Shown here piece after piece: positions 3,575-8,761 of a DNA stretch of 36,564 nucleotides. The first letter of the stretch is position 1, and every line of letters begins with the position of its first letter. Origin of the DNA: Akkermansiaceae bacterium (GTDB lineage: Bacteria > Verrucomicrobiota > Verrucomicrobiia > Verrucomicrobiales > Akkermansiaceae); the NCBI GenBank assembly GCA_947491475.1, contig CANLKN010000033.1, positions 1-36,564 on the forward strand. Reading direction: 5' to 3'. The translations under genes were made by a program, and so were the position numbers. A model generated the notes under the pieces. That model had not been told where the DNA came from. It saw only the letters and a program-made list of their open reading frames with translations, and ran no database searches.

Positions 3575-4066
3575 TCACATCACTCCGAAAAGCTCCGCCG
3601 ACCCGATGCCCTTCCCAGTTTCAACCACCAGCCACTGGCGGTCGTAATTCAGACGCACGGTGGCAAGATGACGGTGTGGCCACTGGTCCGGAGAAATCAT
3701 CGAAAGCGCGCGGCGGCCATCGCCCATGTCGTAGAGGTGATAGATCTCGCCGACTACCGGTTCGAAGCGGATTTCCGCCTCATAAACCAGTTTGTTCCAG
3801 TTGAAGTGGTCGATCGCACGCAGGTAGTCCTCGCGGATTTCGGAGAGCTTCTGCTGCATATCGCGCTCGATCTGGGAAATTCCGCGGGTTTTGAAGGAAG
3901 TCAGATCGTTCGGAACGATCGGCGGGCTCAGCGTGGATACCGGATAGGGCATGAAAGCCCGCGACGGCTGCGCGGAAAGTTCGGGAATCGTGGTGATTTC
4001 GCTCATGGGGAATTGCGTGCGATCCATCGCCCATGATTGAGGCTGCGGCAACCCCAAAAATTCCAT
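3575..4066 (-). CDS. DUF2452 (C1orf50-like) protein
   Basis: Small soluble protein of unknown function with the DUF2452 pattern: an amphipathic helix (DLTSFKTRGISQIERDM, then QQKLSEIREDYLRAIDHF), then EIRFEPVVGEIYHLYD, then ALSMISPDQWP and a C-terminal RLNYDRQWLVVE. The YHLY...SMISPxxW core is the family hallmark, also seen in eukaryotic C1orf50. Start choice: the ATG at 4066 has AAGGGG about eight bases upstream; ATGs at 4105, 4025 and 4006 are in frame and 4006 is also plausible. The gene diverges from tex with only about 60 bases between starts, so the two promoters must overlap. No role is known for the family. Confidence 0.75.
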   Translation of the reverse strand: MEFLGLPQPQSWAMDRTQFPMSEITTIPELSAQPSRAFMPYPVSTLSPPIVPNDLTSFKTRGISQIERDMQQKLSEIREDYLRAIDHFNWNKLVYEAEIRFEPVVGEIYHLYDMGDGRRALSMISPDQWPHRHLATVRLNYDRQWLVVETGKGIGSAELFGVM

Positions 4067-4123
4067 AGCGCCGCCCCTTGCCGGATCGGTGAAACCTGCT
4101 TTCATCGCCGCTCTTCACCCGCC

Positions 4124-6394
4124 ATGACCCACCACCTTGAAACCATCGCCCGCGAGACGGGCATCTCGCTTTCCTCCGTTTCCTCGACCGCCAAGCTTCT
4201 CGCCGAGGGCGGAACGGTTCCCTTCATTTCCCGTTATCGCAAGGAACAGACCGGTTCGCTCGACGAAGTCCAAATCACCACCATCCGCGACCGCATGCTG
4301 CAACTCGCCGAGCTCGATACGCGGCGCTCCGCCATCCTCAAGTCGCTCGAAGAACGCAATCTGCTCACGCCCGAGTTGAAAAAGAAAGTCGAGGCAGCCG
4401 CCATGCTCGCCACCCTTGAGGACGTCTTCGCGCCCTTCCGTCCGAAACGCCAGACACGCGCCACCAAGGCCATCGAACGCGGACTCACCCCACTCGCCGA
4501 TTGGCTACTGGAAAACCAAAGTGCCGATCCCGCTGATGAGGCTGCAAAATACATCGATGCCGAAAAGGAAGTCCCCGCTGCCGCCGACGCACTGGCCGGT
4601 GCCCGCGACATTATCGCCGAACGCGTGGCTGATGACGCATCGCTGCGCGGTCGTGTGAGAAAAATCTACGAAGAAGATGCCACCGTTTCCTCCAAGGTCA
4701 TGTATGGCAAGGAAGAGGAAACCGACGCACAGAAATTCCGTGATTACTTCGAGTGGAGCGAACCGCTCAAATCCATTCCGTCCCACCGCATGCTCGCCAT
4801 CCGCCGCGGCGAGAAGGACGGCTTCCTTCTCATGCGCGTAGAGGTGCCGCTCGAGCGCGTGACCCAACAAGCGCTGCCCGATTGGGTGAAATCCAACGCC
4901 GAGGCTGGCAAACAAGTCGCCCTCGCCGTGGAAGACGGCTGCAAGCGCCTGCTCATGCCGTCGATGGAAACCGAAGCCCGCCTCATGGCGAAAAAACGCG
5001 CGGACGAAACCGCAATTTCCGTCTTTGGAGAAAACCTGCGCGAGCTTCTGTTAGCCTCGCCGCTCGGTGAGAAACGCCTGCTCGCCATCGACCCCGGATT
5101 CCGCACCGGCTGCAAAACCGTGGTTCTCGACCGTTCCGGAAAGCTCCTTCACCACACTGTGCTTTACTGCACTGCCGGGTCTAACAACCAGCTCTACGAA
5201 GCCGCCGTCGAACTCACCACGCTCCTTAAGAAATACGACATCGAAGCCATCGCCATCGGCAACGGCACGGCCTCCCGCGAGACCGAGACATTTGTCAAAA
5301 AACTCAAAGTCACGCTGCCTATCATCATGGTCAACGAAAGCGGTGCCTCCATCTACTCCGCCTCCGATGTGGCGCGCGAGGAATTCCCCAACGAGGACGT
5401 CACCGTGCGCGGCGCGGTTTCCATCGGCCGCCGCCTGATGGACCCGCTCGCAGAGTTGGTGAAGATCGATCCCAAGTCCATCGGTGTCGGCCAATATCAA
5501 CACGATGTGGACGCACGCGCCCTCAAGAACAACCTCGATGGCACCGTCGAATCCTGTGTCAACGCCGTGGGCGTGGAACTGAATACCGCTTCCAAACAAT
5601 TGTTAGCTTATGTCTCCGGTCTTAACTCCACCCTTGCGGAAAACATCGTTTCCTTCCGCAACGAAAACGGAGCCTTCGTTTCCCGCGACCAGTTGAAAAA
5701 AGTCCCACGCCTCGGCGAAAAAGCCTTCGAACAAGCCGCCGGCTTCCTCCGCGTCCGCGGCGGGGCACATGCGCTCGATTCATCCGCCGTGCACCCGGAA
5801 CGCTATGCACTCGTCGAACAAATGGCCGCCGATGTCGGATGCAAACTTGAGGAACTTCTTAACAACGACGCCGCCCGCAAAAAAATCGACCTAAAAAAAT
5901 ATGTCAGCGCCGATGTCGGCCTGCCCACGCTTCAGGATATTCTGTTAGAACTCGCCAAACCCGGCCGCGATCCCCGGAAACAATTTGAGTTGTTCTCCTT
6001 TCAAGACGGCGTGGAAAAACCCTCCGACCTGCAAGTCGGCATGAAGCTCCCCGGCATCGTCACCAACGTCACCGCCTTCGGTGCGTTCGTCGATGTCGGC
6101 GTCCATCAGGACGGCCTCGTCCACGTCAGCCAGCTCTCGGATCAATTCGTAAGAGACGCTTCCGAAGTCGTCAAAGTCGGCCAGAAAGTGCAGGTCACCG
6201 TCATGGAGGTCGATCTCAAGCGCAACCGCATCGCGCTCTCCATGAAATCCAAACCCGACCACGAAGAACGCCGCTCAGCCCCCGGCGATCGGAACGTGGC
6301 TGCGGCGTCGCGCCACAACAACCCTCGCCAACCCTCAGCCGCACCGACCAACGACTGGTTTTCCCAGGCGATGAACCAAGCAAAGAAGAAATAA
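4124..6394 (+). CDS. tex: Tex-family S1 RNA-binding protein
   Basis: Cytosolic nucleic-acid-binding protein of 756 residues, the usual length of the Tex/Spt6-like family, which affects transcription and toxin expression in other bacteria. The N-terminal helical Tex_N region (MTHHLETIARETG...) is followed by a helix-turn-helix-like part. A YqgF/RNase H-like domain begins at LLAIDPGFRTGCKTVVLD, then come helix-hairpin-helix repeats (LPRLGEKAFEQAAGFLR-like, near residue 535) and a C-terminal S1 domain (GIVTNVTAFGAFVDVG, about residues 640-715). The tail is low complexity. The frame is open upstream to 4037, but MTHHLETIA matches family N-termini. The last 39 bases of the gene are repeated at 7610-7648, bounding a foreign-looking cassette. 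Confidence 0.95.
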   Translation: MTHHLETIARETGISLSSVSSTAKLLAEGGTVPFISRYRKEQTGSLDEVQITTIRDRMLQLAELDTRRSAILKSLEERNLLTPELKKKVEAAAMLATLEDVFAPFRPKRQTRATKAIERGLTPLADWLLENQSADPADEAAKYIDAEKEVPAAADALAGARDIIAERVADDASLRGRVRKIYEEDATVSSKVMYGKEEETDAQKFRDYFEWSEPLKSIPSHRMLAIRRGEKDGFLLMRVEVPLERVTQQALPDWVKSNAEAGKQVALAVEDGCKRLLMPSMETEARLMAKKRADETAISVFGENLRELLLASPLGEKRLLAIDPGFRTGCKTVVLDRSGKLLHHTVLYCTAGSNNQLYEAAVELTTLLKKYDIEAIAIGNGTASRETETFVKKLKVTLPIIMVNESGASIYSASDVAREEFPNEDVTVRGAVSIGRRLMDPLAELVKIDPKSIGVGQYQHDVDARALKNNLDGTVESCVNAVGVELNTASKQLLAYVSGLNSTLAENIVSFRNENGAFVSRDQLKKVPRLGEKAFEQAAGFLRVRGGAHALDSSAVHPERYALVEQMAADVGCKLEELLNNDAARKKIDLKKYVSADVGLPTLQDILLELAKPGRDPRKQFELFSFQDGVEKPSDLQVGMKLPGIVTNVTAFGAFVDVGVHQDGLVHVSQLSDQFVRDASEVVKVGQKVQVTVMEVDLKRNRIALSMKSKPDHEERRSAPGDRNVAAASRHNNPRQPSAAPTNDWFSQAMNQAKKK
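6356..6394 (+). repeat. 39-bp direct repeat, copy 1 (3' end of tex)
   Basis: This is the coding 3' end of tex including its stop codon. It matches 7610-7648 at 38 of 39 positions, in the same orientation. The single difference is A versus G in the AAG codon run near the end. Sequence similarity stops abruptly on both sides. Confidence 0.95.
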
Positions 6395-6443
6395 CGTGGT
6401 GGAAATTCTCAACCGCCAGACGCTTTATCTCCAAGCCGGGGGA

Positions 6444-6641
6444 TCAGTCCTCCTGAATCAGCGGTCGAAAATCCGGAAACGCCAACAAAAGCCTCATGCC
6501 TGTTTGCTTATGTGCCTCCAAAGCACCGCCCATCTGGCGGAAACGGTAGGAGGACTCCTTCGGCGCGGCATCCAGTCGGCCAATAGTAAACCAAGCCCGG
6601 ACGGGGGCTGGCGACTGCCAACCGAGGAAAAGCGTTTTCAC
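6444..6641 (-). pseudogene. Truncated HIRAN-family protein, N-terminal fragment
   Basis: A GTG-started frame of 65 codons coupled to the preceding gene by a GTGA overlap. The sequence VKTLFLGWQSPAPVRAWFTI, then GRLDA, YRFRQMGGALEAHKQTGM and LLLAFPDF resembles the N-terminus of HIRAN-domain proteins, which run to about 200 residues or more. Here the frame stops at LIQED, about 50 bases before the tex stop, and the HIRAN domain itself is absent. The downstream part was probably lost when the cassette joined the tex end. A short functional peptide cannot be excluded. The family match is from memory of conserved motifs. Confidence 0.6.
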
Positions 6642-6862
6642 TGTGAATCCACGGTGGCTTGCCACGGGCAATTCACCCCGTGAAATCGTTGGAAAAACCG
6701 GCCTCTTTTTTCCTCCGTGGTCCCTTCGGTGCCAATTCCGCTCCAGACCATTTCCCGGGCGGTGGCCATCATGTCGAATCCCATGAGCAGTCGCTCCTCC
6801 TGCGTCTTGCGCATCATCGCGGTGAAGATCATGGCGTTGACCTCTGGCGGAGTGTCCTTCAC
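6638..6862 (-). CDS. Small helical protein of nucleotidyltransferase module
   Basis: 74-residue protein starting with GTG inside the stop codon of the nucleotidyltransferase gene (GTGA overlap). An ATG frame exists from 6910, but it would overlap the upstream gene by about 50 bases, so the GTG is preferred. The core MMRKTQEERLLMGFDMMATA followed by RGRFFQRFHG resembles a small family in which a K-T-x-E-E-R-L-x-M-G helix and a C-terminal R-F-x-G motif are conserved and which I recall beside nucleotidyltransferase genes in several phyla. No signal peptide or membrane segment is present. By position it could be a partner or antidote of the transferase. That is inference; no function has been assigned to the family that I know of. 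Confidence 0.65.
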   Translation of the reverse strand: MKDTPPEVNAMIFTAMMRKTQEERLLMGFDMMATAREMVWSGIGTEGTTEEKRGRFFQRFHGVNCPWQATVDSQ

Positions 6863-7398
6863 GGCAAAACCCGTGTCAGCGTATCTGTCAGGTTCAATGC
6901 GGCTGACCATGTCCTTAAGTAGTCGGTGTCGCAGCCGGTCGCAATCAAGTTTTCCACATCCGCGAGCTGCCGCTCCGATCCTGATTCCCGCGCCCAGTGC
7001 AGCTTGGAAAGAATGAGATCCTCCTTGCTCACCACCCAGACTTCAAAATCCGACACTTTCAGCCGCTGCCGCCGGGCGAACTCATGCAGGCGGTAGTCCT
7101 CCCGCTTGCGCACCATGAAATCCACCTTGATCAGCGTGGTCTGGTGGATCGCATTGAAACAGCTCCGATTCAATACCGCCTCCCGTGCGGCGTGTGCCGA
7201 GACATAGTAGTCCTGCCCCATAACCTCCTCTATCCGCGCCACGTCCTCCAACTGAAAGGCCACCACCAGATCGATGTCGCGCGTCATGCGCGGCTGGGCG
7301 TAGCAATTCAGCGCCACCGAACCGGTGAGCATGTAGTCGATGCCTGCCGCATCCAGCCGGGCCACGATGTCTCGAAGGAGTTGCAGTTCTTCAGTCAT
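6859..7398 (-). CDS. Nucleotidyltransferase-fold protein (MNT/AbiEii-like)
   Basis: 179-residue protein with a polymerase-beta-type nucleotidyltransferase core. The motif GSVALNCYAQPRMTRDID gives the G-S turn and the two Asp residues that bind metal, and a third acidic position lies in LIKVDFMVRK. The C-terminal half (VVSKEDLILSKLHWARE) matches the helical part of AbiEii/DUF6036-like transferases. Such proteins act as toxins in type IV toxin-antitoxin and abortive-infection systems, or as MNT antitoxins that modify HEPN partners by AMP or NMP transfer. No HEPN gene is adjacent. It overlaps its upstream neighbour by ATGA and its downstream one by GTGA, so all are probably translated together. 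The fold is secure; the role as toxin, antitoxin or neither is open. Confidence 0.85.
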   Translation of the reverse strand: MTEELQLLRDIVARLDAAGIDYMLTGSVALNCYAQPRMTRDIDLVVAFQLEDVARIEEVMGQDYYVSAHAAREAVLNRSCFNAIHQTTLIKVDFMVRKREDYRLHEFARRQRLKVSDFEVWVVSKEDLILSKLHWARESGSERQLADVENLIATGCDTDYLRTWSAALNLTDTLTRVLP

Positions 7399-7610
7399 GA
7401 TTTGAAGAATTCCATTCCCTCAGCCTCCCCCTCTTCAATCGCCACTTCCACGGCGCGTTCGGCTTTGGCGAGGAGAGCTTGGACTTCTTGGGGGGCGGGC
7501 GCGAAGAATTTGAAATCCAAGCTTTCTGCGGCAATAGCTTCGGAAGCGCTGCGAGTGTAGGTCAAAAGCTCCGGCGGTTGCCAGTTTTCCAAGCCGAGGG
7601 CTTCTAACAT
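7395..7610 (-). CDS. Small unknown protein, first gene of nucleotidyltransferase module
   Basis: 71-residue acidic protein starting MLEALGLENWQPPELLTY. The open frame continues upstream into the duplicated tex end, but that part is just the repeat read backwards, so the ATG at 7610 is taken. It is predicted to have a long C-terminal helix (about residues 38-65: APQEVQALLAKAERAVEVAI). It ends with an ATGA overlap into the transferase gene. No family is recognised. Size, acidity and first position would fit an antitoxin or a regulatory subunit, which is speculation. No promoter is visible between it and the TPR gene upstream, so it may rely on read-through from there. Confidence 0.6.
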   Translation of the reverse strand: MLEALGLENWQPPELLTYTRSASEAIAAESLDFKFFAPAPQEVQALLAKAERAVEVAIEEGEAEGMEFFKS

Positions 7611-7648
7611 GGTTTTCCCAGGCGATGAACCAAGCGAAGAAGAAATAA
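7610..7648 (+). repeat. 39-bp direct repeat, copy 2 (duplicated tex end)
   Basis: Second copy of the tex 3' end, lying six bases before the TPR gene's stop codon. It starts on the last base (7610) of the minus-strand ATG of the cassette's first gene, so on that strand it forms the gene's immediate 5' leader. Without the cassette, tex and the TPR gene would be convergent neighbours about six bases apart. Confidence 0.95.
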
Positions 7649-7654
7649 GGAGCC

Positions 7655-8422
7655 TCACTGGTCCACCACATCTTCTTCGCCGTAGAAGCTCTTAATGTAG
7701 CCGTATTCGACGAGGGTGTCCTGCCATGGGCCGAGGACGTTGGGATCGCGGAAGATCCGGCCGGCCCGAGCCAGCCATTCCTCGGCCTTGATCAGATCCT
7801 TTTTGTCATAAGCCAGAGCGGCCTGAGCGTAGTAATAATACGGTGAATCGTCGAGGAAATCGTATTTTTCAGCGAGAATGGTGACCTCGTCAGCCATGCC
7901 GAGCTTTTTCTTGCTCAGCAGGATCTTGAACTCCACCAACCTGCCCAGCGCCATATTTTCGGGTGGCAGTATCTTCAGGACGTTTTCGAAGACATCGAGC
8001 GCCTTCTGCCATTGCTTGGTGACAAAGTTCACCTCGCCGATGTTGAAGAGGATGCTGGGATTGTCTTTCGACAACGCCAACGCCTTGTCGAACTCCGCCA
8101 GCGCTTTGTCGAAAGAGCGTATCTCGACATAACAACTGCCGCGCAGGTTGTGGATTTCCGAGCTGTCCTGGAAAATGGCCGCAGCTTTGTCAATTTCCTC
8201 AAGGGTTTCAAAAATCCGCTTTTGTTGGAAGATGCGGTTCGCCTCGCTGAGTTGTTTGATAAACTCGTTGCGCCTTTCTTCAGGAAGATTGAGGAAGGCC
8301 TGCTGGTTGGGCAGCAGCGCGGGGGTTTCGGGAGCGGCCTCTGCGGCAGCGGGCGCGGACTCGTTCTGTGCCATCAGCGGCGTGAGAAGAACGAACATCG
8401 AGAGAAGGGTAATGGACTTCAT
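7655..8422 (-). CDS. Secreted TPR-repeat protein
   Basis: 255-residue exported protein. The ATG at 8422 gives MKSITLLSMFVLLTPLMAQN, a typical signal peptide. The longer open frame (to 8596) reads through the 17-bp tandem repeats and is rejected. After an Ala/Pro/Glu-rich linker come at least three tetratricopeptide repeats, for example RIFQQKRIFETLEEIDKAAA, RSFDKALAEFDKALALSKD and KQWQKALDVFENVLKILPP, and a C-terminal helical pair (YYYYAQAALAYDKKDLIKAE). TPR proteins mediate protein-protein contacts; the partner is unknown. It is convergent with tex, from which it is separated by the inserted cassette. Confidence 0.8.
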   Translation of the reverse strand: MKSITLLSMFVLLTPLMAQNESAPAAAEAAPETPALLPNQQAFLNLPEERRNEFIKQLSEANRIFQQKRIFETLEEIDKAAAIFQDSSEIHNLRGSCYVEIRSFDKALAEFDKALALSKDNPSILFNIGEVNFVTKQWQKALDVFENVLKILPPENMALGRLVEFKILLSKKKLGMADEVTILAEKYDFLDDSPYYYYAQAALAYDKKDLIKAEEWLARAGRIFRDPNVLGPWQDTLVEYGYIKSFYGEEDVVDQ

Positions 8423-8761
8423 GGCAAATGGGGCGGGAAATGATTGCTTGGGCACCCTAAACAGCAAATCCGCAGACGGCAAGCCGTCGTTTCGTGACAG
8501 CCGTCGTTTCGTGACAGCCGTCGTTTCGTGACTGTTTCGGTGCCAATCGCCGCTTTGAAAGCATATTGGAGAATGAACGGAAGCGTCGCGGGACACGATC
8601 CCCGTGACCCCATCCGATGTGGAGCGACCCGTAGCGAATGTTGCTGTGACCGGGTGCCCTGTTTTTCCGGCAATCGTTTTTTCTCATGGAAAAAATTGGC
8701 CGAAAAAATCCTTGCCAAGGAGTTCCCGCTGTCGTTCTTTTCCGCCCGCACCGCGAACAAC
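8423..8761. other. Intergenic region with tandem repeats, no gene
   Basis: About 340 bases between the TPR gene and tRNA-Glu. It holds three 17-bp tandem repeats (8483-8532), preceded by a GACGGC-AA-GCCGTC inverted repeat at 8475-8488. The promoter for the TPR gene must lie here, but no strong -35/-10 pair stands out. Nothing else is recognised. Confidence 0.6.
8483..8532. repeat. Three tandem 17-bp repeats
   Basis: The unit GCCGTCGTTTCGTGACA occurs three times head to tail (8483-8499, 8500-8516, 8517-8532, the last lacking its final A). The copies are otherwise identical, which suggests recent expansion. They lie about 60 bases upstream of the TPR gene start and could hold regulatory sites or simply be a small minisatellite. 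Confidence 0.9.

Follow-up and report, generated by a model that had tools for sequence, protein, structure and literature searches.

Which of three small, overlapping genes in an Akkermansiaceae genome form a functional unit, and what might that unit do? The genes encode a nucleotidyltransferase flanked by two short proteins. They lie in a window of 36,564 nucleotides, by which we mean the whole stretch of DNA analysed, and the contig derives from a 3.9-Mb source genome in 182 contigs. The relevant features, referred to below as A, B, C, tex and the direct repeat, are as follows.

7395-7610, minus strand: A, 71 aa, ATG start; hsdS remnant, joined to B by an ATGA junction
6859-7398, minus strand: B, 179 aa, ATG start; MenT1-type nucleotidyltransferase, predicted toxin
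6638-6862, minus strand: C, 74 aa, GTG start; small three-helix protein, predicted antitoxin
4037-6394, plus strand: tex (Tex/S1-type RNA-binding protein), convergent open reading frame named from sequence, start codon uncertain
6356-6394, plus strand: direct repeat copy 1, the tex 3' end; 39 nt, 97% identical to 7610-7648, with one mismatch
7610-7648, plus strand: direct repeat copy 2, a duplicated tex 3' end; the sole second tex-tail match in the source genome

The initial annotation described three small genes linked by ATGA and GTGA overlaps, and these frames and junctions are real: A and B overlap at 7398-7395, B and C at 6862-6859, all on the minus strand. It saw the unit but gave no strand and missed the bracketing 39-nt direct repeat. 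In the C family the start corresponding to this GTG is conserved (M-x-D-T-x-P-E); an upstream ATG at 6910 is also open but unnecessary. Joint recurrence in about 80 other loci, together with purifying selection on B (dN/dS 0.07/0.77) and C (0.05/0.60), both measured against locus L037, indicates that these two genes are more than chance open reading frames.

On the evidence of its modelled fold, B is a MenT1-type nucleotidyltransferase. The earlier description of an MNT/AbiEii-like transferase holds, with a Pfam AbiEii match at 2.6e-9 (37.8 bits, cut-off 22.5) and intact catalytic residues. Among PDB sequences, the sole clear match is MenT1 (8an4/8an5/8rr5), at E 1.3e-4 when B alone is the query and at 1.4e-7 with a 61-sequence profile. 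The AlphaFold model of B (pLDDT 94.6) retrieved MenT1 as all of the top five Foldseek hits (E 5.8e-9 to 9e-7), and VIA with the same model placed MenT1 at Z 17.5 (3.0 Å, 173/179 residues), ahead of ANT(2'') at Z 14.1 and MenT3 at Z 12.1. The stretch P-R-M-T39-R40-D41-I-D43 of B corresponds position by position to R37-F-T39-R40-D41-x-D43 of MenT1, and K132 and D147 are spaced by 15 residues, as are their presumed equivalents K137 and D152. Toxicity of MenT1 requires D41, K137 and D152, while T39 is its phospho-acceptor (PMC10435456; PMC11375011). Disruption of the catalytic Asp residues across homologues had been named in advance as grounds for abandoning the proposed module. The survey found the opposite: R37, T39, R40, D43, K132 and D147 are invariant among 61 B-family sequences and D41 is present in 60/61. 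The exception, L087, carries D41 changed to A beside a retained C, and is likely an inactivated toxin. Identity between B and MenT1 is only about 20%, and two MenT1 residues that contact MenA1, F28 and F38, are replaced in B by V28 and M38. Viral contigs yielded no match to B, and in plasmid records its matches were limited to distant proteins, carried by five cyanobacterial plasmids and one of Herpetosiphon.

The partnership of B with C was examined across relatives found by searching 84,980 genomes with a profile built from four B proteins. This returned 366 relatives, and the 80 best of these were inspected; they belong in the majority to Verrucomicrobiota and otherwise to Beta-, Gamma- and Deltaproteobacteria, Acidobacteria, Nitrospirae and Bacteroidetes. 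In about 80/80 of these close loci a C-family frame lies directly downstream of the nucleotidyltransferase, which bears out the initial suggestion of a small helical protein accompanying such transferases in several phyla. The two frames usually overlap by 4, 8, 13 or 20 nt, while for a handful the automatically called start of C falls just past the stop codon of the nucleotidyltransferase.

C itself is less easily placed. It had no meaningful match in Pfam, NCBIfam or PADLOC, and none in viral contigs, phage records or plasmid records. Its AlphaFold model (pLDDT 90.4) has helices at 6-17, 21-42 and 49-61; a Foldseek search with it gave no significant match, and MenA1 was not among the matches listed. 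MenA1 consists of one long and one short helix (PMC10435456). Only 2/31 C-family members match PF18993, "Rv0078B-related antitoxin" (best 8.5e-5). A profile of the 31 C proteins did align by hhalign with one of 18 MenA1-like proteins encoded upstream of distant nucleotidyltransferase relatives (94.7%, E 5.8e-8, 56 columns), and some of these upstream proteins pass the PF18993 cut-off. Neither the C profile nor this intermediate profile found the MenA1 chain in PDB sequences, so that the link from C to MenA1 runs only through intermediate short-helical families. Chance similarity comes easily in such families, as a match of the intermediate profile to an unrelated TPR-like protein at 5e-6 illustrates, and this weakens the link. 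Subject to that caution, profile-profile comparison suggests that C belongs to the Rv0078B/MenA1 antitoxin superfamily.

Degraded loci offer a further view of C. On contig 25 of genome G066 (519-829; L005/L036), the nucleotidyltransferase is cut to its last 36 residues, its catalytic front part gone, while the C frame is intact, as would be expected of a harmless partner; this C is an orphan antitoxin-like gene. In L045 and L048, C is reduced to its front part with the long helix. As residues 1-32 of MenA1 are enough for antitoxicity (PMC10435456), these shortened forms are compatible with an antitoxin role.

By analogy with MenAT1 (Rv0078A-Rv0078B) of Mycobacterium tuberculosis, we consider it likely that B and C form a MenAT1-type toxin-antitoxin pair with reversed gene order, in which B would be a toxin that blocks tRNA 3' ends and C its antitoxin. 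The initial annotation called the unit uncharacterised, which overstates the case. The modelled fold of B and the superfamily placement of C lead to a system of published structure and mechanism (PMC10435456, PMC11375011), which allows the likely toxin and its antidote to be named with fair confidence. The pair resembles MenAT1 in its full-length toxin fold, in the B equivalents of T39, D41, D43, K137 and D152, and in being a two-gene unit with a short helical predicted antitoxin of about 70 residues. It differs in the low toxin identity, the loss of the F28 and F38 contacts, the failure of the C profile to reach MenA1, and an arrangement in which the toxin comes first in overlapping frames, whereas MenA1 is encoded upstream of MenT1. 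The claim is therefore that the pair works like, and is related to, MenAT1, rather than that it is MenAT1. AbiE (AbiEi/AbiEii), a type IV toxin-antitoxin system, is a more distant comparison: B exceeds the Pfam AbiEii cut-off, but it is a shorter protein than AbiEii and bears more resemblance to MenT1, and its neighbours are C and the HsdS remnant A, neither of which matches an AbiEi model.

The difference in gene order extends to the relatives of the pair. In published cases, menA1 beside menT lies upstream, not downstream (PMC10435456), and the same holds for the short helical protein of distant nucleotidyltransferase relatives from the same phylum (24-36% identity); in the window and all close relatives, C lies downstream of B. 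In a tree of 54 nucleotidyltransferases, a single branch with support 100/99 separates the toxin-first from the antitoxin-first group, although the toxin-first sequences were fetched as close relatives of B, a sampling that favours a single clade. The source genome also holds a second nucleotidyltransferase of the family (L002, C13:30721-31212), with a short helical protein upstream in the usual MenAT1 order. The single branch and the presence of both orders in one genome make the reversal look like one event followed by wide spread.

If the homology to MenT1 extends to activity, B would transfer NTP-derived nucleotides onto the 3' acceptor end of tRNAs; for MenT1 the donor is CTP. Modified tRNAs could not be charged, and translation would halt. 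The helices of C are predicted to bind B beside its active site and exclude tRNA, and C may also drive B to phosphorylate its own T39, as MenA1 does to its toxin. Because the start codon of C overlaps the B stop codon, C is probably translated by ribosomes that have just completed the toxin message, and a scarcity of C would free B. Lying at the tails of other genes, the cassette may depend on their transcription. Phage tRNAs were suggested as a possible target by the authors of the MenAT1 paper, and any role of the present pair in phage defence would be conjectural.

The assignment of roles has to be weighed against two other readings. The pair could work in the manner of HEPN/MNT systems, in which C would be the toxin and B an antitoxin adding nucleotides to it; a small helical protein adjoins a nucleotidyltransferase in both, MntA of the HEPN/MNT system is an adenylyltransferase antitoxin (PMC7641770), and B holds all the catalytic residues such a role would need. 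We regard this as improbable. B, of MenT/AbiEii type, is closer to the MenT1 toxin than to any other solved structure, and C persists in G066 where the nucleotidyltransferase has decayed. The initial annotation had observed that the locus has neither AbiEi nor HEPN, and indeed no model of either matched. C has no HEPN match in Pfam, and the RX4-6H motif is not conserved among 31 C proteins, the RxxxxxH of the window's C not being kept and its His usually being Tyr. It is less probable still that B is a detoxifying nucleotidyltransferase of aminoglycoside or lincosamide type with C as an accessory. ANT(2'') and LnuA do rank directly behind MenT1 among the fold matches and Pfam Aminoglyc_resit falls just below its cut-off on B, yet the fold score of MenT1 is clearly higher and MenT1 alone gives a clear sequence match in the PDB. 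To our knowledge, constant pairing with a protein of the MenA1 superfamily is no feature of ANT or Lnu enzymes, which also counts against this reading.

There remains the composition of the unit, which the initial annotation took to be a module of three genes. A neighbourhood survey of three-gene co-occurrence, proposed there as the point on which that view would stand or fall, divided it: B and C co-occur and constitute the conserved unit, whereas A was found beside none of the other B homologues (best approximately 80 of 366). A matches PADLOC HsdS models at 7.8e-9. Its residues 1-52 correspond to the central region, and 38-71 to the C-terminus, of one HsdS open reading frame (L135/L138), from which it follows that the 5' part of hsdS and the second target-recognition domain are missing. 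Measured against a type I specificity subunit, A keeps the central and C-terminal helical segments and lacks both recognition domains. HsdS genes are present in the source genome, but none resembles A. A functional three-gene unit, with A as a helper built from the helical segments of HsdS, could be argued from its open frame, the in-frame fusion of the two segments and the ATGA junction with B. The chance of this is very slim: apart from the absence of A elsewhere, its start abuts the tex repeat exactly, and the ATGA overlap needs no function, as B often sits right behind the final codons of its upstream neighbour, whichever gene that is. A is probably outside the functional pair, the simplest reading being that it is the tail of a gene that once preceded the cassette.

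With B and C as the probable MenAT1-type unit, the surroundings of the pair become informative. Elsewhere, B follows unrelated co-directional genes, often overlapping them or lying within tens of bases. These include ThiC (several loci), PheS, GatB, PrmA, TypA, IlvD, ribonucleotide reductase, MsrB, a DAHP-synthase/KdsA family enzyme, homoserine dehydrogenase, part of CarB, LmuB and pAgo. Two cassettes among the closest relatives, in L041 and L047, stand directly behind the LmuB gene of a Lamassu system and the gene of a prokaryotic Argonaute, respectively. Eight other neighbours examined with these, and ten further ones, gave no convincing defence match, and we thus claim no general linkage to defence.

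We compared the 400 nt upstream of B with the 600 nt after C (threshold score >= 19) and found the tail of the neighbouring gene repeated across the pair in 16/77 loci, the window included, against 7/1925 mismatched null pairs, six of which involve thiC tails. The repeats are 24-158 nt long, the copies are mostly 66-97% identical, the target gene varies by locus, and the second copy often begins close to the C stop codon. For eight loci whose upstream gene was identified, the two copies differ at the three codon positions in the ratio 22/19/44 (44/85 at the third), a skew most evident in L083 and L098. This bias suggests that both copies were once functional gene ends, one of them from another genome. 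In L094, a sequence resembling the thiC tail follows C, yet a gene other than thiC lies upstream; the cassette may earlier have occupied a thiC site. It might be objected that the repeated tails are assembly artefacts or chance rather than traces of movement, as nearly all loci are metagenome-assembled and the tex repeat has a single mismatch. This is very unlikely, given the excess over mismatched pairs and given that misassembly would not yield diverged copies with a third-position bias.

At the window itself, the C-terminal tail of tex (NDWFSQAM..AKKK) is conserved in relatives that carry no cassette there. A search of relatives for an empty site found tex tails, but 0 loci share the window's downstream gene, and for this reason no clean before-and-after pair is available. 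The spacer at 6395-6640 has no further copy in the source genome. Further along, near the start of a TPR-protein gene (minus strand, 7655-8596), positions 8482-8532 hold three perfect 17-nt tandem copies of AGCCGTCGTTTCGTGAC.

The arrangement recalls site-specific integrative elements at gene 3' ends (attL/attR), in which a gene tail likewise stands on both sides of the insert and the gene is left whole. It departs from them in that the insert, of about 1.25 kb, has no integrase, targets and repeat lengths vary, and the copies are often diverged. Transfer may have proceeded through an unseen recombinase, or through homologous recombination for which the gene tail served as anchor, and the cassette would have moved along with pieces of gene tail such as the hsdS tail A and the tex repeat. 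Simple anchoring on tex does not explain the inverted orientation of the window's cassette, and our search of the literature on such gene-tail insertions found nothing matching. As a tentative proposal, which we rate at somewhat below even chances, a toxin-antitoxin cassette of wide distribution that encodes no recombinase may spread by settling behind unrelated genes, at their 3' ends. It would carry tail pieces of its previous or donor site, leave repeats and fossils behind (A from hsdS, the thiC tail in L094), use the transcription of its neighbour and have its antitoxin translated only after the toxin.

Overall, the analysis connects a gene pair that seemed unknown to a structurally solved toxin family, with a likely toxin and a likely antitoxin named. 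MenAT1-like pairs in toxin-first order exist as one clade across several phyla, a range much wider than that of the 21 menA1 genes in the published MenAT1 survey. Repeated gene tails, in turn, provide a testable case of small toxin-antitoxin units that may settle behind housekeeping genes without a transposase.
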